Virus record (IMG/VR): IMGVR_UViG_3300024508_000201
Span: 1 to 24,074 of that record
Source of the DNA: a virus
DNA length: 24,074 bases
Direction: 5' to 3' (one strand)
Shown: in pieces, positions 364 through 23,105 of the stretch
Position numbering within the stretch: the stretch's first letter is position 1
Layout: each line of letters begins with the position of its first letter
Program-made: the position numbers and the translations under genes
The notes under the pieces: generated by a model
What the model saw: only the letters and a program-made list of their open reading frames with translations
Databases searched by the model: none
Told to the model about the DNA's origin: nothing

Positions 364-599
364 TGGAAATGTTTTTATTTAAACCGGATAATTATAAAGA
401 ATGGTCAGATAGCGCTATTAAAAAAATAATAAAAGTTGTAGATTCATGTATCAGTGATGACCATTTAGACTCTGCTAAACAAATGATAGATCATTTTATT
501 TTAATGCTTGCCTTAAATGAAACTTACTCAGAAGAAACTGTACAAGATATATCAAAACAATTATATTTATATTTAAATATTAAAAAATCTAATATATGA
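363..599 (+). CDS. Unknown small protein, 78 aa
   Basis: I do not recognise this protein. It is a mostly helical, charged sequence without signal peptide or membrane segment. Its start overlaps the stop of the methylglyoxal synthase gene (TAATG), and its own stop overlaps the start of the nucleotidyltransferase gene (ATGA), so it is almost certainly translated as part of this operon. Nothing visible ties it to a catalytic function. Confidence 0.75.
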   Translation: MEMFLFKPDNYKEWSDSAIKKIIKVVDSCISDDHLDSAKQMIDHFILMLALNETYSEETVQDISKQLYLYLNIKKSNI

Positions 600-1171
600 G
601 TTCTAAAACAAAAATAGGATTTACAGCAGGAAACTTTGATCTATTACACCCTGGCTATATTTATACATTTGAAACTGCAAAACAACACTGTGATCACTTC
701 ATAGTTTTTCTACAAATTGATCCATCTGAAACAAGATTCACGAAATATAAACCAGTAATACCTTTATATGAAAGATATAAAACTTTAATGGCAATACAAT
801 ACGTTGATGAAGTTATAACATATCAAACAGAAGAAGATCTAATTAAATTAATAAAATTCTATAAACCTGATGTTAGAATTTTAGGAGAAGACTATATTGG
901 TAAAGGATTTACAGGAGATGATTTACCCCCTAAGGTAATTTATACAACGCGATCACATAACTGGTCAACTACTAAACTCAAGGATTTAATTACAATGCAA
1001 ACTATTAAGCAAAATCCTGAAATAGTAGATAGAGCTAAGAATGAAAAAGAACAAACGTCTCACCAAAGATTAATGTTAGCAATTAGAGATCAAATTGCAC
1101 AACATGCTGAAGGTAATTTAACTGAGGCACAATATAAATCAGCAATTAAAGAATTATTAGAAGAATCATGA
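596..1171 (+). CDS. Cytidylyltransferase-like nucleotidyltransferase
   Basis: This is a member of the HxGH nucleotidyltransferase superfamily (glycerol-3-phosphate cytidylyltransferase / RfaE C-domain type), which joins a nucleotide to a phosphorylated small molecule. Visible signatures are the N-terminal FTAGNFDLLHPGY (about residues 9-21), a central ILGEDYIGKGFTG stretch, and RSHNWSTTKLKD, the counterpart of the RxxxxSTT motif. The second histidine of HxGH is a tyrosine here (H18-P-G-Y21), which is unusual and might reduce or alter activity. A helical, glutamine- and glutamate-rich tail of about 55 residues follows the catalytic domain. Starts are coupled on both sides by ATGA overlaps, and the downstream neighbour is an RmlB-like dehydratase, which suggests nucleotide-sugar or related metabolism. 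The substrate cannot be read from the sequence. Confidence 0.8.
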   Translation: MSSKTKIGFTAGNFDLLHPGYIYTFETAKQHCDHFIVFLQIDPSETRFTKYKPVIPLYERYKTLMAIQYVDEVITYQTEEDLIKLIKFYKPDVRILGEDYIGKGFTGDDLPPKVIYTTRSHNWSTTKLKDLITMQTIKQNPEIVDRAKNEKEQTSHQRLMLAIRDQIAQHAEGNLTEAQYKSAIKELLEES

Positions 1172-2103
1172 GAATAATCGTAACAGGAGGACTTGGATTT
1201 ATTGGATCATCTTTTGTAAATTTATTAAACAGAAGAATACCAAACGCTAAGATAGTTATTTTAGATAAAATGACGTACGCTGCTAATCCTAACAATATAA
1301 TTAAACCAACAAGTATCATTAAAAAAGATATATGTGATGTGACTCCTGATGATTTAGGATCTTATGACTATATTGTACATTTCGCCGCAGAAAGCCACGT
1401 TGATAACTCTATTAAAAATGGAAGGCCATTTGTTAGAACTAATGTTGAAGGTACTTTTAACTTATTAGAGTGTGCAAGACAAAACCCTGATCTTAAAAAG
1501 TTTATTCATATTTCAACAGATGAGGTTTATGGAGATATGGCAGATATTGGATTACTAGCAGAAGCAAATGAAGCATATAGTTTATCAGCATCTTCATATT
1601 ATTCAGCAACAAAAGCTTCAAGTGATTTATTAGTTGAAGCAGCGGGTAGAACCTTTGGTTTACCATATTTAATTACAAGAACTTGCAATAACTATGGAGA
1701 ACATCAAAATGAAGAAAAATTCATTCCTAAAATAATGAAGTCAATTGCCAATGATTTAACAATACCAGTATATGGAGATGGTAAGCAAGTTAGAGAGTGG
1801 ATTGATTGCGAAGACAACGTACAAATTATATATGAACTTATGTTATCAGATCTAGAAGGTGAGGTTTATAACATTGGCTCTGGAGAGAGATATGAAAACA
1901 TAGAAATTATAAATATGATCGGAGAAATGTTAGGAAAAACTCCTAAGTTTGAATTTGTTAAAGACAGATTAGGGCATGATCGTAGATATGCAATAAACTC
2001 AACTCGAGTTAGAGAAATATTCTCAGATTGGGAAACTCTTTCATTTCAAGAGTTTTTATTAGAACAAGTAAATACATTAAAATTAAAACAAGAACAATTA
2101 TGA
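1168..2103 (+). CDS. NAD-dependent dTDP-glucose 4,6-dehydratase-like (RmlB family)
   Basis: This is an extended short-chain dehydrogenase of the NDP-sugar epimerase/dehydratase family, 311 aa, slightly shorter than typical RmlB. Visible features are the Rossmann dinucleotide loop TGGLGFIG (residues 6-13), HFAAESHVDNS (71-81), STDEVYG with the dehydratase-specific Asp-Glu pair (116-122), the catalytic YSATK (Y145, K149), NNYGEHQNEEKFIPK (174-188) and YGDGKQVREWI. The DE pair after the catalytic Thr is characteristic of 4,6-dehydratases rather than simple epimerases. The expected reaction is NDP-glucose to NDP-4-keto-6-deoxyglucose. The gene is coupled to the cytidylyltransferase-like gene upstream. 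It could feed host-surface glycans, virion glycosylation or DNA glycosylation; the sequence does not decide. Confidence 0.85.
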   Translation: MRIIVTGGLGFIGSSFVNLLNRRIPNAKIVILDKMTYAANPNNIIKPTSIIKKDICDVTPDDLGSYDYIVHFAAESHVDNSIKNGRPFVRTNVEGTFNLLECARQNPDLKKFIHISTDEVYGDMADIGLLAEANEAYSLSASSYYSATKASSDLLVEAAGRTFGLPYLITRTCNNYGEHQNEEKFIPKIMKSIANDLTIPVYGDGKQVREWIDCEDNVQIIYELMLSDLEGEVYNIGSGERYENIEIINMIGEMLGKTPKFEFVKDRLGHDRRYAINSTRVREIFSDWETLSFQEFLLEQVNTLKLKQEQL

Positions 2104-3676: not shown

Positions 3677-3961
3677 ATGAAGAGTATATTAGAAGAAGCA
3701 AATGACATTGTAAATAATAGAAGTGAAGAAGCAGATAGAAATTATGGTCCTTTTTCTGAAGGAATGGATCGAGCTGCTATGATATTTCAAGGAATGACCG
3801 GCCATCCCGTAACCGGCGCTGATATGTTTAAAGCATTAGTAGCACTTAAATTTTCTAGAGAAAGCTACAACCACAAAAGAGATAATTTATTAGACGCAGT
3901 CGCGTACATTCAAGGATTAGATAACTACGTTCAGGAGAACAATTCTAAAAACAATGAATGA
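3677..3961 (+). CDS. DUF6378-like protein, 94 aa
   Basis: This short helical protein contains EEADRNYGPFSEGMDRAAMI near the N-terminus and MFKALVALKFSRESYNHKRDNLLDAVAY in the C-terminal half (this second stretch is given only as a landmark of family-like residues). The arrangement of YG, a central helix, an LK.SR helix and a D..LD..AY helix is what I recall for the DUF6378 family, found widely in phages and of unknown function. The distribution of acidic residues is reminiscent of all-alpha nucleotide pyrophosphohydrolases, which is speculative. The gene begins 22 bases after the start of a candidate promoter box and overlaps the next gene. Confidence 0.7.
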   Translation: MKSILEEANDIVNNRSEEADRNYGPFSEGMDRAAMIFQGMTGHPVTGADMFKALVALKFSRESYNHKRDNLLDAVAYIQGLDNYVQENNSKNNE

Positions 3962-4121
3962 TAAAAGACCTAAAAACCCAATTAAAGTAACTCACCCTAA
4001 ATATGGTACAGGAGAGGTTTACGAATATTTTGAATTTTACAATGAAGAATTTATGAATATAAAATTTGAAAAGTTAGATAAAGTAATGTACCTTAGTTCA
4101 GATTCTATAAAAAAAATATAA
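3954..4121 (+). CDS. 55-aa Tudor/UvrD-tail-like protein
   Basis: This is a small ORF starting at ATG 3954, overlapping the preceding stop, and ending at 4121 directly before the next ATG. It encodes VTHPKYGTGEVYEYFEFYNE followed by an FMNIKFEKLDKV segment. The pattern V.HPKYG.G.V with following beta strands resembles the small Tudor-like C-terminal domain of UvrD/PcrA helicases, which contacts RNA polymerase. Here it stands alone. The similarity is by eye; the exact fit into the gap between two genes supports it being real. Confidence 0.65.
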   Translation: MNDKRPKNPIKVTHPKYGTGEVYEYFEFYNEEFMNIKFEKLDKVMYLSSDSIKKI

Positions 4122-5162
4122 ATGAAAGTAGCAATAACGTCAGTATTTTCAAACTTAACGTACAATAGTAAAAACCACAGAGGATTAGAGGTAACATACT
4201 TTAAAAAGCTTTTAGAAGAAAACAAATATGACGTTGATCTAATTGGTAAAAAAAATAGAAATACAGAAGAATTTGATTTCTATAAAAACTACGCTGACAC
4301 TGATTGGAATTCTTATGAAGCAGTTTTTATTCAATTAAGTACTGCTAATTTCTTTGGCGGTGTTGTTGGAGAACATACTGAACCAATTGCAAGAGCCCTT
4401 GCAGGATATGGTGGTAAAATATATGTTTTAGTAAATGATCCTCGGATCGATTTCTTAAACCCAGTGGATAAGTTAAAAAGATTTAATCTACTTCAAGATC
4501 TTAGCTCAGAGTGGTCCGAGATCATTGAGGAAGCAACATATTTATTTCCAGGTAAAGACATTAGTAAATTCTTAGGAAGAACACCTAAAAATTGGCAAAA
4601 ACTAGATTGGTTTACATATATGTTTAAGCACAGAATGGCTGATAAGTTAAATAATACAAAAACAACAAACGCACTTTTTGATTTTGATGCTCCTAAAAAA
4701 GAATGGGATGCCATTTACTATGGAGATAATCGAGCAGCCTTTAGAGAACAACAAGTTCGAAAGTATATGCCACATAGCGAAAAGAGTTTATTAGTAGGTT
4801 ATAAAACTAAAAAAGTTCCAACGACCTTTGCAAAAAAGATGGAACACTCAGTTTTATTAGATACTATTTCAAAAAGTAAAGCAAGTTTAATATTAGGAGA
4901 TGATGAACATTTAAATAATGTGACAACATTCCGCTTTTATGAAACTATGGCAAGTGATTGTTTGGCAGCGATCCAAATCGAATACGATCCAGAAATGGAA
5001 TTAATACAAGACCCTGTATTGCGTGATCAATTATATGTAAAATCGTCAAAGGATGTTGAGAAATTAGTAGCATCTTATTCGGATGATTTAATTGCAAGAC
5101 AGAAGAAAGAATTAAGAAACATATTTAACAGATTAGATATAACCTTTAAAATAAACAAGTAA
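4122..5162 (+). CDS. bgt: DNA beta-glucosyltransferase homologue (T4 Bgt-like)
   Basis: T4 beta-glucosyltransferase moves glucose from UDP-glucose onto 5-hydroxymethylcytosine in phage DNA. The protein can be lined up with T4 Bgt along its length: MKVAITSV start; GLEVTYF with E23 (T4 E22); ANFFGG (T4 INFFGG); KIYVLVNDPR with D106 (T4 catalytic base D100); DAIYYGDNRAAFR with R204 and R208 (T4 R191, R195); SLILGDDEH with D260 (T4 D258); and TTFRFYETMASD with R271 and E274 (T4 R269, E272). It is 346 aa, close to the T4 length. The stop overlaps the start of the gp56-like gene, a partner in the T4 cytosine-modification pathway. The modified base and sugar used here are inferred, not shown. Confidence 0.85.
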   Translation: MKVAITSVFSNLTYNSKNHRGLEVTYFKKLLEENKYDVDLIGKKNRNTEEFDFYKNYADTDWNSYEAVFIQLSTANFFGGVVGEHTEPIARALAGYGGKIYVLVNDPRIDFLNPVDKLKRFNLLQDLSSEWSEIIEEATYLFPGKDISKFLGRTPKNWQKLDWFTYMFKHRMADKLNNTKTTNALFDFDAPKKEWDAIYYGDNRAAFREQQVRKYMPHSEKSLLVGYKTKKVPTTFAKKMEHSVLLDTISKSKASLILGDDEHLNNVTTFRFYETMASDCLAAIQIEYDPEMELIQDPVLRDQLYVKSSKDVEKLVASYSDDLIARQKKELRNIFNRLDITFKINK

Positions 5163-5629
5163 TGGCAAACATAGATAACGAATGTAAAGACTTAGAAGTA
5201 AAAGACTTTTATGATCAGTCAAACACACACTTAGCAGATATCATGGAAAACCAAAAAAAGATGCAAGAGCAGACTTATGGTTTTAACTTTGATGATATGA
5301 CAATTAGAGAAATTATGGATTTCTGGCACTGTAATACACATGCAGTTGTTGATGAAATTCACGAAATGACCGATGCTCTTGGTGGTATTAAAGATGGTTC
5401 TGGAAATGCAGTATGGAAATACTGGAAAAAAGACTTTACAAAATACGATACATTAAAGATTTCTGACATGTCTGAAGGAGACAAAAAAGAATTGTATATG
5501 GAATGGGTAGATATTCTACACTTCTTTATTAATTACGCCGCTTCAATCGGGCTAGATGCTAAAACAGCATATAACTATTATTTCGCAAAAGCAGAAGAAA
5601 ATGTTAACCGTCAGAAAAATAACTATTAA
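5162..5629 (+). CDS. 56: gp56-like dCTPase/dUTPase (all-alpha NTP pyrophosphatase)
   Basis: T4 gp56 hydrolyses dCTP and dUTP (and the diphosphates), keeping cytosine out of phage DNA and supplying dCMP and dUMP. The metal-binding pairs are visible as E65xxE68 (VVDEIHEM) and E114xxD117 (MEWVDILHF), with AVWKYWKKDF between them, as in dimeric dUTPases. The match to T4 gp56 as I remember it extends through the C-terminus (W..WK, D.MS..D, E.VDI.HF, N..YY.K..EN..RQ.N.Y), making gp56 a better call than a generic dUTPase. It sits between the glucosyltransferase and polymerase genes with TAATG overlaps on both sides. Substrate range (dCTP as well as dUTP) is inference. Confidence 0.8.
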   Translation: MANIDNECKDLEVKDFYDQSNTHLADIMENQKKMQEQTYGFNFDDMTIREIMDFWHCNTHAVVDEIHEMTDALGGIKDGSGNAVWKYWKKDFTKYDTLKISDMSEGDKKELYMEWVDILHFFINYAASIGLDAKTAYNYYFAKAEENVNRQKNNY

Positions 5630-7026
5630 TGATATTAGATATCGAACAAAGAGATAGGGATGTCATTGTTTCCTATTACGATACTGAAGGTAAAGTAGCA
5701 TATAAACAATATCCAATTGCTCAATTCCAGAATTGGTATATATGTGATGAAAAAGAAAAAGGAGTTAGTACTGAATTTAAAAACTGGGATGGAAGGCCTG
5801 TTAAATTAGGAAACGCTAGACAATTCAATAAATTTTCATTAAATTATTTTATAGACGGATTACCTGAAAAAGATAAAGAAGAAATTTTAGCATATAATAT
5901 GCCTAAAACCTATTTTGTCGATATTGAAACCGAAATTGTAGATGGATTTCCTAAAGCTGAAGAAGCTAAAAGTAGAATTTTATCATTCTCAATTATTACA
6001 CCAGAACGTAAAGCAATTGTATTAGGACTGGAAGATATGGCTCCTGATAAAATTAAAAAGATCAATGATGATACTAATGAGTATTTCAAAGACTTTGATC
6101 AGGATTGGGAATTTAAGTATCATAAGTTTAATACAGAATATGATATGGTATATACTTTTTTAATGAAGTTTTTACCTAAATTTCCAATGATGACTGGCTG
6201 GAACTTCATAAACTATGACTGGCAATATATCGTAAATAGATGTAAAAGATTACAAATAGATGTTGCTGAGGTAGGTATGACTAAGAAGGTTGATAGAAAC
6301 GATTCTAGACCTTTACATATTGGTATTTTAGATTACATGCAGTTATATGATAAATATGATCGTAGTGTGAAAGTAAAAGAATCTAATGCACTTGATTATG
6401 TTTCTGGTCAAGTATTAAACGTAAAGAAGATTAAATACTCAGGCTCATTACAGGATTTATATAGAGATAATTTCGTTAAATACATTTATTATAACGTGGT
6501 CGATTCAGTGCTGGTATACTATATTGATCAAAAGTTAAAATCAATGGAAGTTCTTTTAACTCTTGCAAATATAACAAGAATGCCGCTATATAAAGCAGCT
6601 TCTCCAGTGGCAGTCACAGAATCTTTAATGGCAAGAAAGTTAGCAGAACAAGGAATGCGAATAGGAACTGAAAGAAGAGAAGATAGTGAAAAGAATTCTC
6701 AATACGCCGGAGCATTTGTTAAAGAACCTATTGTTGGATATTATGAAGGTGTAAGTGCATTTGACTTTGCTTCCCTATACCCATCTATAATGAGACAATT
6801 TAATATTTCGCCAGATGCTTATATAGAGCAGGTATATAAGACTGAGGTTGCGGAAAGACGTAAAGACAAAGACGTTATTGTTTGTGATAATGGTGTAGTT
6901 TATAAAAAAGATGATAGTATTCTTAAAAAGATATTAACAGATTTATATTCTCAGAGGAAACAATATAAAAAAATGTCGTATGATTATTTTACTAAGGCTG
7001 ATCAACTTAAAAAAAGATTAAGATAA
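5629..7026 (+). CDS. 43A: DNA polymerase, N-terminal half (gp43A)
   Basis: This is the family B replicative polymerase of T4/RB69 type, carrying the N-terminal domain, 3'-5' exonuclease and the first part of the palm and fingers. Visible motifs are Exo I FVDIET (D98, E100), Exo II GWNFINYDWQYIVNR (D197), Exo III YYNVVD (Y288, D292), GAFVKEP (about 361-367) and palm motif A FDFASLYPSIM (D379). R443 of YSQRKQYKK corresponds to the triphosphate-binding arginine of RB69 (R482). The frame stops at residue 465 within the fingers helices, before motif B. Motifs B and C are found on a separate ORF at 11506-12708. No frameshift restores them, because the following bases are a structured spacer and then nrdB. 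A bipartite enzyme is the likely product. Confidence 0.93.
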   Translation: MILDIEQRDRDVIVSYYDTEGKVAYKQYPIAQFQNWYICDEKEKGVSTEFKNWDGRPVKLGNARQFNKFSLNYFIDGLPEKDKEEILAYNMPKTYFVDIETEIVDGFPKAEEAKSRILSFSIITPERKAIVLGLEDMAPDKIKKINDDTNEYFKDFDQDWEFKYHKFNTEYDMVYTFLMKFLPKFPMMTGWNFINYDWQYIVNRCKRLQIDVAEVGMTKKVDRNDSRPLHIGILDYMQLYDKYDRSVKVKESNALDYVSGQVLNVKKIKYSGSLQDLYRDNFVKYIYYNVVDSVLVYYIDQKLKSMEVLLTLANITRMPLYKAASPVAVTESLMARKLAEQGMRIGTERREDSEKNSQYAGAFVKEPIVGYYEGVSAFDFASLYPSIMRQFNISPDAYIEQVYKTEVAERRKDKDVIVCDNGVVYKKDDSILKKILTDLYSQRKQYKKMSYDYFTKADQLKKRLR

Positions 7027-11505: not shown

Positions 11506-12708
11506 ATGATAGAGATACAGGAACTTATTGATAAACCAGAAAGCGAGCTTAGTGTTCAAGAAACTGAAACATTGATTGATCATTATCAAACAATGTCTGC
11601 AAAATACACAGCGTACGAACAGGCAGTTAAAGTAACACTAAACTCGATTTATGGTGCCTTTGGTAATAAATGGTTTCACTTTTTCGATATTGAAATAGCA
11701 GAATCAATTACATTACAAGGCCAAAGTGCCATTCTATATTCTGAAAAAATATTAAATAAATATTTTCAAGAATTTTGGCCAAAAGATACAGTAGTTCATG
11801 AACACTTTAATATTAGTATTAAAAATAAATTAGTAAGACCATCCGTAGTTTATATTGACACAGATTCTTGCTATGTTCAGTTTGAAGAAATGTATGAGTC
11901 TATTGAATGGTTAGGAGAATCAAAACCTCCTATTGATAAGTTTATTATGGATTTATATACGTTTAGACTTAGAGATTATATTACAAAATGTATGCAAAAA
12001 TATGCAGATGTTACTAATACAAAAAACTTTTTATTCTTTGAATTAGAATCAATTGCATATTCAGGTATATGGTTAGCAAAAAAGAAATATTTACAAAATA
12101 TTGCATGGGAAGATCGATTAGACGTTTCTGATAGATATGATTCTCTTAAAAAAATTAAAACAATTGGTTTTGATACAATCCAATCTTCAACACCGGCACT
12201 TGCACGTAAACATCTAACTGATGCTTTAAAAATAGTTCTTTCTGAAAAACCAACAGCAGATCTTCTTAAAAAGCTAGTAGATTATTTAAAGAAAGGTAAG
12301 AAAGAATTTAAATTAGCAGATATAGACCAAATAGCATTTAATAAAAGAACAAATAATATTGAAAAATATATCGTAGATGATACTATTGAATTTCAAATAG
12401 GATTAAAGTGTCCACCTAATGTTAAAGCAGCAGGATTTTATAATTTCTTAATGAATCAATCTCCTAAATATAAAAACAAATATAAAATGATAGGTAATGG
12501 TGAGAAATTAAAGTTATATCACTGTAAGCATTTATCGTGCGATATGTTTGCTTATTTACCAGGAGATCATCCTTATGAAATTGCGCCTGAGGTTGATTAT
12601 GAACTACAATTTGAAAAAAGCGTAATAGACCCTTTAAATAGAGTATTGAAGGCAGTAGGTCTTCAGACTTTAAACAGAAATTTAATTTATTCAACATCAT
12701 TATTTTAA
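11506..12708 (+). CDS. 43B: DNA polymerase, C-terminal half (gp43B)
   Basis: This ORF carries the remainder of the family B polymerase: the end of the fingers, the palm catalytic core and the thumb. Motif B is VKVTLNSIYGAFGN (K42, N46, Y49; RB69 K560, N564, Y567). Motif C is VVYIDTDSCYV (D118, D120). KKKYLQNIAWEDR (about 183-194) is the KKRY-type DNA-binding motif. The first about 35 residues resemble the RB69 fingers segment before motif B, so little sequence is missing between the halves. A stop codon immediately precedes the ATG, so this is an independently translated chain, not a frameshift product. The C-terminus ends in hydrophobic residues (STSLF), where T4 polymerase carries its clamp-binding peptide. 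Confidence 0.93.
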   Translation: MIEIQELIDKPESELSVQETETLIDHYQTMSAKYTAYEQAVKVTLNSIYGAFGNKWFHFFDIEIAESITLQGQSAILYSEKILNKYFQEFWPKDTVVHEHFNISIKNKLVRPSVVYIDTDSCYVQFEEMYESIEWLGESKPPIDKFIMDLYTFRLRDYITKCMQKYADVTNTKNFLFFELESIAYSGIWLAKKKYLQNIAWEDRLDVSDRYDSLKKIKTIGFDTIQSSTPALARKHLTDALKIVLSEKPTADLLKKLVDYLKKGKKEFKLADIDQIAFNKRTNNIEKYIVDDTIEFQIGLKCPPNVKAAGFYNFLMNQSPKYKNKYKMIGNGEKLKLYHCKHLSCDMFAYLPGDHPYEIAPEVDYELQFEKSVIDPLNRVLKAVGLQTLNRNLIYSTSLF

Positions 12709-14169: not shown

Positions 14170-14480
14170 TGAAAGCTAACGTTCATAAAATATTAGAAGA
14201 TAAATTGCCTATAAAATATATTTTAGGCATTCAGGATAAACTCGAAGCGTTTCCTGATGCTTTCGATATTTTATACATATTTATTAACGAAGCGGTTAGA
14301 CGTCCCGATAGACAAAAGGAAACATTCACGAAGCATGCTTTGATGAAATACCATTCTAAAGGTAATCATGAGAACGCAGAAGAAGGTCTTAAAAGAGGAA
14401 TTCAATTAGGACTTTTAGAGCAAATTAAATTTGAAAAAGGAAAAGAAACTTACGAAATAAAAATAAACCCATATATATGA
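14169..14480 (+). CDS. Unknown protein, possible winged helix, 103 aa
   Basis: It is coupled to uvsX upstream and to the oxygenase gene downstream by overlaps. The N-terminal half is helical and hydrophobic (DAFDILYIFINEAVRRPDRQ). The C-terminal half (FTKHALMKYHSKGNHENAEE, then GLKRGIQLGLLEQI and a beta hairpin EKGKETYEIKI) has the shape of a winged-helix domain, with helix, recognition-like helix and wing. DNA binding is plausible but not shown. In T4, uvsY works with uvsX, but I see no UvsY similarity here. Confidence 0.7.
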   Translation: MKANVHKILEDKLPIKYILGIQDKLEAFPDAFDILYIFINEAVRRPDRQKETFTKHALMKYHSKGNHENAEEGLKRGIQLGLLEQIKFEKGKETYEIKINPYI

Positions 14481-15049
14481 TAGCAGTATTTGACGATTTT
14501 ATACAAGATCAAGATTTATTAAACACAATAGCAAGAGAAGGAGAATCATTTTTTGTACCTACTGGAGACTATAAATACTGGAAAGGATGGTGGTCTAAAG
14601 ACGCCGTTAATACAAAACAAAGATTAGCCCAATATATTTGGGGTGATAACTTTCCGCTTAAACTAAACTTAGAGGTTGACGGTTTTGAATATTGGACTGG
14701 TCTACAAACAGCCCTTGAAGATGGTAGAAGAAATTATTTAGAAATGCATTACGATGATGATGTTCATTTAAGAGAAAAAACAGGAGAAAGAATGTTTCCA
14801 ATACTAGGATGTGTATATTACCCTCCAGGATTTGATTTTAAAGGAGGAGATCTATTGGTATATACTGATGGAGAAAGCAACACACCTGATCGTATTAAAA
14901 CAAGACCAAATAGATTAGTAATTTTTAATCCAGGTGAGGTAGCACATTGTGTTGATACTGTAACTGAAGGAGTAAGAGGAGCAATTGCGATTAATATATG
15001 GGGACAAGAGCCGTGGTCAGTAGGTCAAGGATTTATTGGTGTAGAATAA
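14477..15049 (+). CDS. 2-oxoglutarate/Fe(II)-dependent oxygenase
   Basis: This protein belongs to the prolyl-4-hydroxylase-like 2OG-Fe(II) oxygenases, which hydroxylate a substrate using 2-oxoglutarate, O2 and iron. The iron triad is H91-Y-D93 (LEMHYDDDV) and H157 (GEVAHCVDTV); R167 (GVRGAIAIN) is positioned to hold 2-oxoglutarate. Other family marks are GCVYYPPGFDFKGGDLLVY (about 111-129) and RLVIFNPGEV. Length is 190 aa, a single domain. Such oxygenases are common in T4-like phages of marine hosts. The substrate (protein, nucleic acid or small molecule) cannot be read from sequence. Its presence in a genome with a DNA glucosyltransferase leaves DNA or nucleotide hydroxylation open, as inference only. 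Confidence 0.87.
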   Translation: MIAVFDDFIQDQDLLNTIAREGESFFVPTGDYKYWKGWWSKDAVNTKQRLAQYIWGDNFPLKLNLEVDGFEYWTGLQTALEDGRRNYLEMHYDDDVHLREKTGERMFPILGCVYYPPGFDFKGGDLLVYTDGESNTPDRIKTRPNRLVIFNPGEVAHCVDTVTEGVRGAIAINIWGQEPWSVGQGFIGVE

Positions 15050-22039: not shown

Positions 22040-22528
22040 ATGTCAATAAAGAATGTTAAACCAACTAAAAACTCAGGATTTAATCAAGGTTATTTTATCC
22101 CTAACTTTCCTGAGAAATATATCGGACCAACTCCGATTATATACAGAAGCTCATGGGAGCGCAAATTCTGTATTTGGTGTGACATGAATGATAAAGTATT
22201 AAATTGGTCAAGTGAGCCTGTTGAAATTAAATATTGGTCGAGACAAGATAATAAGGCACGTAAATATTATCCTGATTTTTATTTTAAACAAAAACAACAG
22301 GATAATTCTAATAAAGAATATTTAGTTGAAATTAAACCAAAGGCACAAATTCAAAAACCAGAACCTCCTAAGAAAAATTCAAAAAAAGCTATAAAATCTT
22401 ATAAATTTCTGGCAGAGCAGTATGTTAAAAACATGGATAAATACAATGCTGCTAAAGAATATTGTGAAGGTCGTAACTGGAACTTTATAGTATTAACAGA
22501 AGACACTATATTAAATGGGCTACGTTAA
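22040..22528 (+). CDS. 4: Head completion protein, gp4 (gp50)-like
   Basis: gp4 is needed to finish DNA-filled heads before tail attachment and has a nuclease-like fold. The start is the ATG at 22040 (MSIKNVKPTKNSGFNQGYFI); an earlier in-frame ATG at 21890 lies inside gp55 in another frame. Characteristic stretches are FIPNFPEKYIG, YRSSWERKFCIWCDMN, VLNWSSEPVEIKYW and YYPDFYFK, then YLVEIKPKAQ. The E..xxD..(E)xK pattern (EPVEI, PDFYF, EIKPK) is the PD-(D/E)xK-type active site expected for this family. Length of 162 aa is close to T4 gp4 (150). Confidence 0.82.
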   Translation: MSIKNVKPTKNSGFNQGYFIPNFPEKYIGPTPIIYRSSWERKFCIWCDMNDKVLNWSSEPVEIKYWSRQDNKARKYYPDFYFKQKQQDNSNKEYLVEIKPKAQIQKPEPPKKNSKKAIKSYKFLAEQYVKNMDKYNAAKEYCEGRNWNFIVLTEDTILNGLR

Positions 22529-23105
22529 AAAACAAATAAGAGAATTAACAAAAAGCGCTGGTAGTAAAAGAGCTGCCAGAAAGGCTGCTGAGAAATGGTT
22601 TAATGATGGTGTTAGTAATAAAAGTGTAAAAGAAGCAGCTTATGTTAGAAATAGATTTGAACCTGGAAAAATATACATATTTGAATATGACCCTATTACA
22701 CCAGATCTCGAATTTTTCGACAAAAACCCAGTAGTACTCGCTTTAGAACAATTAGATAATAACAACGATTTAGGAGTTAATTTAAATTTATTACCAATTA
22801 GAGTTAAAGAAGATTTATTAGATGATCTATATAGCAGGGTACAAGGTCAAATAAAAAGTAATTCAACAGGTGTAAAATATTATAACGCAAAAACACAAGG
22901 AGGATTAAGAATAACGTACGACGGTATGAAATCGTATTTACAAAGATCCGGATGTGATTTTGCAATCAGACAATATAAACCAAGTAGAAAACAAAAACAA
23001 GCAGTTGTTAGTTATTCTAAATGGCCAGAGATAGCACTATGTGATTTTATTGATTTAAATGGTGTTACAATGAAACAAATTAGAAGATTGTTTTCTAAGA
23101 AATAA
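22515..23105 (+). CDS. Possible DNA end-protector gp2-like virion protein
   Basis: The 196-aa protein has a basic N-terminus (KKQIRELTKSAGSKRAARKA). A central stretch FEPGKIYIFEYDP, then FFDKNPVVLAL, LGVNLNLLPIRVKEDLLDDL, follows a pattern I associate with phage head/DNA-end proteins (F.PG.MY.F.Y.P, YYD.FPLV, GLN.HYLP). The C-terminal part has YSKWPEIALCDFIDLNGVTM. In T4, gene 2 (end protector against RecBCD) neighbours gene 4, so position agrees. gp53, the other T4 neighbour of gene 4, is the main alternative, but its sequence as I remember it does not fit. The start overlaps the gp4 gene by 14 bases. Confidence 0.4.
   Translation: MGYVKKQIRELTKSAGSKRAARKAAEKWFNDGVSNKSVKEAAYVRNRFEPGKIYIFEYDPITPDLEFFDKNPVVLALEQLDNNNDLGVNLNLLPIRVKEDLLDDLYSRVQGQIKSNSTGVKYYNAKTQGGLRITYDGMKSYLQRSGCDFAIRQYKPSRKQKQAVVSYSKWPEIALCDFIDLNGVTMKQIRRLFSKK

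Follow-up and report, generated by a model that had tools for sequence, protein, structure and literature searches.

Pyle et al. are said to have described in 2024 how virus-encoded glycosyltransferases hypermodify DNA with diverse glycans, and the enzymes covered there may include relatives of those considered here. In GenBank, 753 phages carry a DNA glycosyltransferase of the T-even type, and co-occurrence of the alpha and beta enzymes is rare according to the excerpts of that survey used here (PMC13216743). A study from 2025 on large phages of aquatic habitats, mostly with predicted Bacteroidota hosts, mentions glycosyltransferases, and the available portion of its text never uses the word "hydroxymethyl" (PMC12619734). 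The phage described in this report is very probably a large T4-related phage whose DNA contains 5-hydroxymethylcytosine (hmC), to which a sugar is then added, and the site between its genes for a DUF6378 protein and gp56 would be a hot spot at which relatives exchange this last step.

The window, by which we mean the whole stretch of DNA analyzed, is a 24,074-bp IMG/VR virus record. On its plus strand, at 4122..5162, lies the gene for a 346-aa homologue of the T4 DNA beta-glucosyltransferase (BGT), the content of what we regard as an exchangeable slot. The slot has a conserved left border, a 94-aa DUF6378 protein (3677..3961; PF19905, 4.2e-10), and a conserved right border, a 155-aa gp56-like all-alpha dCTPase/dUTPase (5162..5629), both on the plus strand, as are the other four genes listed next. 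Also within the slot is a 55-aa ORF (3954..4121), which had no match in a PHROG search and is present in some BGT loci and some alpha-glucosyltransferase (alpha-GT) loci. The right flank is the N-terminal half of a split family B DNA polymerase (5629..7026; phrog_2062, 6e-83, with a match to T4 gp43). To the left of the slot are genes for a cytidylyltransferase-like protein, a putative sugar-nucleotide enzyme (596..1171; PF01467, 2.2e-13), and an NAD-dependent nucleotide-sugar epimerase/dehydratase, a putative sugar-donor enzyme (1168..2103; PF01370, 2.4e-50). Genes of both kinds occur in the alpha-GT contigs G031 and G024 too, and we treat them as possible sugar-nucleotide enzymes tied to no one type of slot.

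Some other features of the window are recorded here as observations in their own right. The polymerase is divided between ORFs 5629-7026 and 11506-12708, with four genes between them, including one for an NrdA homologue, and a comparable split and gene order are seen in relatives (L135-L139). The window also encodes a 2OG-Fe(II) oxygenase (14477-15049; PF13640), and the related contig G010 has at least three further 2OG/PhyH-type dioxygenases. The protein encoded at 22515-23105 is homologous to DNA end protectors (phrog_429, 1.1e-21).

The 346-aa protein matches PF09198 over residues 1-112 (E 7.5e-9; 36 bits, cut-off 27), phrog_7922 over residues 1-319 of 346 (E 1.5e-20), and the solved T4 enzyme, PDB 1bgt, over residues 1-298 (E 2.6e-15). 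The original prediction held that seven residues of T4 Bgt are kept, and in the alignment all seven are identical: E22, D100, R191, R195, D258, R269, and E272 of T4 correspond to E23, D106, R204, R208, D260, R271, and E274 of the window protein. We take the seven T4 residues to be the catalytic base and the UDP-glucose-binding residues. They are identical in the window and four relatives and are kept in G038 as well, at 44% identity (L105, which has a broken frame, was left out of alignment A2). The gene is under purifying selection, with dN of 0.007-0.156 against dS of 0.12-2.5 in five pairs. A GT-B fold would be expected of this family, and the AlphaFold model of the protein has low confidence (pLDDT 50). 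Relatives were found in 118 named phage records (E <= 1e-3), every one below 60% identity. Sequence comparison thus confirms the protein as a homologue of T4 BGT over nearly its full length.

The BGT and gp56 ORFs share one base, at a TAATG junction. The gp56 protein matches phrog_173 (3.3e-13) and has 36.8% identity to the gp56 dCTPase of phage JSE (tblastn, E 3e-17). It had been claimed that this overlapping gene aligns to the end of T4 gp56 and keeps the ExxE and ExxD motifs, and both points are borne out: the alignment, at 31% identity, reaches the last residue of T4 gp56, and the acidic residues invariant in eight aligned rows include E65/E68 (ExxE) and E114/D117 (ExxD). The Pfam family dUTPase_2 scored 14.9 bits, under its cut-off of 22.9. 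A phmmer search of PDB sequences returned no gp56-type structure; its sole match, Pumilio, is not a relative. The alignments confirm the 155-aa gene as a gp56 homologue with both acidic motifs intact.

The original prediction also stated that a gp42 hydroxymethylase must lie outside the window, and one was located beyond it, in G019 and in G010. A search for thymidylate synthase (TS)-like genes took 15 of the 25 BGT loci, in as many IMG/VR contigs; the hydroxymethylase was found in 1 of the 15, G010 (175,162 bp), and not in the other 14, which are 11-91 kb long and may be fragments. Besides an ordinary ThyA, G010 encodes a protein that among PDB entries matches the T4 dCMP hydroxymethylase best (E 4.4e-18), with D171 aligned to T4 D179 and C140 to T4 C148. 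The Asp of the T4 D179 type presumably selects dCMP over dUMP, and we take it as the mark of a dCMP enzyme. The aligned ThyA has N in this column, as do two T4 PDB entries, presumably D179N mutants. Counterparts of Cys148 and Asp179 are found in all 65 gp42-like loci (63 + 2), many of which are near copies.

Two contigs, G010 and G038, carry both BGT and gp42, and the 175-kb G010 has BGT, gp56, gp42, and a dCMP deaminase together. Five colinear blocks, at 76-84% nucleotide identity, align most of the window with G010; roughly the first 370 bp of the window and the region at 2.3-3.7 kb have no alignment to it. The population of the window itself can be followed through overlapping contigs. The window is 99.94% identical to L145, part of G004 (91,386 bp), over a 15,626-bp overlap, and G004 1-20473 is 99.97% identical to G019 20473-1, with six mismatches and no gaps, each end lying inside the other contig. 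A gp42 gene with the counterparts of T4 Cys148 and Asp179 is located at G019 43921-44766, and a dCMP deaminase was found in G004 as well. By contig coordinates, gp42 and BGT share a strand, with gp42 92-93 kb upstream; the distance in G010 is similar, at 96-97 kb. Since the chain from window to G004 to G019 joins contigs of different metagenomes, it links these genes within one population and not within one particle.

The wider distribution of gp42 was sampled in two ways. Among 18 contigs of the slot survey, drawn from its 80 loci, gp42 was found in all three type D contigs of 199-234 kb and not in the remaining 15, which are 27-124 kb long and may be fragments. Conversely, a BGT-profile search covered 46 of the 62 gp42 loci (those left out being G010 itself and otherwise mostly short contigs) and gave a match in three, a strong one in G038; the 43 of 46 contigs without a match indicate that in this lineage the presence of gp42 is not bound to that of BGT.

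A scan for gp56 covered at least 599 stretches and confirmed at least 264 relatives, and we kept the best 80 of the 264 for a survey of the slot. Among these best 80, the slot holds an alpha-GT in 31 loci, cassette D in 19, BGT in 13, cassette E in eight, a 364-383-aa protein (type C) in eight, and D plus BGT in one; many of the loci are near copies (82 tree rows, 60 of them different). A DUF6378 homologue is on the left of the slot in 73 of the 80. In the other seven the sequence is short on the left in six, and the gene is seemingly absent in L170.

The genes left of gp56 were read directly in seven stretches, G031, G024, G037, G038, G041, G035, and G051. G031, G024, and G037 encode a homologue of the T4 alpha-glucosyltransferase there, scoring 66.4 and 65.4 bits against PF11440 (cut-off 25) in the two that were scanned, G031 and G037. 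The slot of G038 contains BGT plus six genes. Among the seven genes in that of G041 are ones for a family-2 glycosyltransferase and a UDP-galactopyranose mutase. G035 carries both gp42 and gp56, but on the left of its gp56 there is nothing except a ThyA homologue and two short ORFs, with no DUF6378 border, and G051, a distant relative, has a slot with no recognized content. Seven gp42 contigs of 133-179 kb have a gp56 that is 98% identical to that of the window and have no BGT match; the slot was read in six of the seven, and all six have an alpha-GT (G031, G022, G023, G024, G026, and G029, of which the last five are loci L160, L168, L159, L162, and L164, respectively).

The remaining cassettes are more varied. 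Cassette D typically encodes a myo-inositol-1-phosphate synthase, an FkbM methyltransferase, and an HMUDK_hel protein, and in one D locus a TAGT-family glycosyltransferase replaces the FkbM gene. Cassette E encodes a weakly PALP-like protein and uncharacterized proteins, with a LOG/lysine-decarboxylase-type protein in some loci and, in one genome, a family-2 glycosyltransferase together with a UDP-galactopyranose mutase; its matches to PALP and GDSL families are under the Pfam cut-offs. Pfam searches gave no match within their thresholds for the type C protein, for two type E families (two members each), or for the first type D gene (two members). The type C protein was considered as a BGT relative and rejected, as profile comparison shows no relation (probability 0.1); its AlphaFold model has low confidence (pLDDT 44). 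A tentative extension, which we place somewhat on the doubtful side, is that several of these cassettes (C, D, and E) install DNA modifications of new chemistry on a fixed hmC layer, for example inositol-derived or galactofuranosyl cytosines, with the DUF6378-gp56 site as a dedicated exchange locus.

A DNA tree of gp56 and the polymerase N-terminus was calculated for 75 of the 80 loci together with the window and four contigs, giving 80 rows, of which 58 are different. Three loci were left out for having too little sequence after gp56 (the rule was 1,200 bases), and L191 and L197 were left out for extra sequence after gp56, which misaligned. The slot groups had been defined ahead of the tree, though from the same loci. 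The tree requires 11 changes of slot type, or 10 with D and D plus BGT merged, where the least possible number is six; a tree that includes the misaligned L191 and L197 requires 13. Because recombination may carry the flanks along with the slot, 11 is to be read as a minimum. A single clade for alpha-GT is rejected (p-AU 6.7e-62), and so is a single clade for D (p-AU 8.7e-7), whereas a single clade for BGT is not (p-AU 0.48). These results suggest that the DUF6378-gp56 site is an exchangeable modification locus at which relatives swap predicted DNA-decorating genes. What is exchanged at this fixed locus is the predicted glycosyltransferase, in a lineage carrying gp42 and gp56. BGT itself is a further member of the already known T4 kind, and we found no paper on a DUF6378-gp56 exchange locus in the openly licensed PMC text searched.

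In L191 and L197 the extra sequence is between gp56 and the polymerase, and an open frame in that of L197 resembles, by eye, a homing endonuclease.

We propose the following pathway for the window phage, whose relatives range up to about 175-179 kb. In it, gp56 would degrade dCTP, gp42 would convert dCMP to hydroxymethyl-dCMP, a candidate kinase would take this to the triphosphate, and the split polymerase would build the hydroxymethylated nucleotide into DNA. After replication, BGT would transfer glucose onto the hydroxymethyl group, with D106 as the base and R204, R208, R271, and E274 holding the UDP-sugar, roles that we assume can be taken over from T4 BGT. Relatives would exchange this last step, using a beta-GT, an alpha-GT, or a multigene cassette, and keep the hydroxymethylcytosine base layer, and such exchange presumably evades host enzymes that recognize one particular decoration. 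The kinase step is the one for which no T4 counterpart was detected: G010 has no homologue of T4 gp1, the hydroxymethyl-dCMP kinase, by phmmer (E <= 10, 172 predicted proteins) or tblastn (1e-3), and parts of seven other contigs gave no gp1 match by tblastn (1e-5). An unrelated kinase may replace gp1. Nor was a homologue detected in G010 for denA, denB, alc, arn, a-gt, tk, frd, nrdC, or dam of T4. This pathway is the best explanation for the homology, the conserved residues, the linkage, and the exchange described above, and every biochemical activity and selective reason in it is one that we infer from these. The cytosine-glycosylation pathway originally predicted from BGT and gp56 is thus largely supported by homology, by the residues, and by gp42 in the same population.

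The nature of the sugar and the extent of modification bear on how this pathway should be read. The epimerase/dehydratase and cytidylyltransferase-like genes, 2-3.5 kb upstream of BGT, raise the question of whether the enzyme adds a sugar other than glucose, such as arabinose, xylose, or a deoxysugar, to an hmC layer that is otherwise as proposed. We consider this unlikely, given that the T4 residues, several of which we take to be UDP-glucose binders, are unchanged, and that the sugar-nucleotide genes are also in two alpha-GT contigs and so are not tied to BGT; there is precedent in T4-like phages with arabinosyl-hmC (PMC6024577) and in one phage with a pentose on cytosine (PMC12838424), as far as the consulted parts of those papers describe them. 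It is quite unlikely that gp56 removes dUTP only and gp42 works at a low level, which would make hmC sparse instead of a full replacement for cytosine. That reading would fit the annotation of gp56 relatives, which differs between records (dCTPase or dUTPase), and the lack of a detectable gp1 homologue in the contigs searched, but gp56 is 98% conserved between genomes with different slot genes, and the catalytic Cys and the dCMP-enzyme Asp of gp42 are kept in every one of the 65 loci.

It is very improbable that the target of the glycosyltransferase is a phage protein or a surface glycan of the host instead of DNA. Surface-modifying glycosyltransferases have been proposed for SAR11 myophages, but GT8 is the most represented family there, in the excerpts of that report available (PMC7029224), whereas the BGT and alpha-GT of this lineage belong to the T4 families named for DNA glucosyltransferases (PF09198 and PF11440). 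Moreover, they adjoin gp56 in a lineage that has gp42.

A Bacteroidota host is likely, judging from two kinds of sequence evidence. The polymerase matches 2,581 named records, and the best 25 of the 2,581, at 30-46% identity, are from uncultured huge phages, Sphingomonas phage PAU, Prevotella Lak phages, and Chryseobacterium phages. Furthermore, one of the proteins of G010 has a type IX secretion sorting domain (PF18962), which is typical of Bacteroidota. A Glaciecola bin that appeared in a scan of genome contigs was discarded as a hint of the host, as it had a single polymerase match of 29% and provides no host evidence.

Two further features of G010 deserve mention. It has a second, diverged BGT-like gene encoding 379 aa (L038:12720-13859, which is G010 172720-173859), which keeps five of the seven residues, with D39 in place of E22 and A244 in place of R195, and is followed by a PhyH-type dioxygenase gene and a methyltransferase-like gene. 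Among the 15 contigs searched, this gene is present in G010 only, the other 14 matching through their ordinary BGT at 27-29%; a further search likewise gave G010 alone, and we therefore left it out of the general model. The second feature, at 121603-131876, is a block of plus-strand genes in a contig that is mostly minus-strand, encoding a GlnRS/GluRS-like tRNA synthetase, a class-I amidotransferase, and the type IX secretion sorting-domain protein. A 0.4-kb piece of this block also matches G004, and the block could be a set of acquired host genes.

Our analysis would extend glycosylated-cytosine DNA of the T4 type to a T4-related lineage that is uncultivated and probably infects Bacteroidota, and in which the hmC genes appear to be retained and the last modification step to be exchanged at a single locus. 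Such a lineage would provide a natural series in which to test how the switching of sugars is driven by host nucleases and DNA glycosylases, and its cassettes make a short list of those likely to produce hitherto undescribed DNA modifications.

Variation of the sugar on cytosine is known likewise from T4-like phages, with arabinosyl-hmC in RB69 and a pentose in Thanatos, according to the parts of the reports cited (PMC6024577, PMC12838424). Those are phages of E. coli and Shewanella, respectively, whereas here there are at least five types of cassette at one locus, some with no recognized glycosyltransferase. The BGT of the window is like that of T4 in being homologous over near full length, at about 28% identity, with the seven tested residues kept, but it comes from a lineage that is uncultivated and has its polymerase split. 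T4 BGT adjoins gene 42, whereas the BGT gene of the window adjoins gp56 and the polymerase and is 92-93 kb from gp42. As in the T4 hmC pathway, gp42, gp56, and dCMP deaminase are present, and a beta-GT or an alpha-GT is in the slots of many relatives, but G010 lacks detectable homologues of gp1, denA, denB, alc, and arn, and some of the relatives' cassettes are absent from the T4 annotation. Finally, T4 has two glucosyltransferases at separate sites, whereas in the lineage described here the two kinds alternate at a single site, as read from the slots and from a contig-wide search for the BGT family only.
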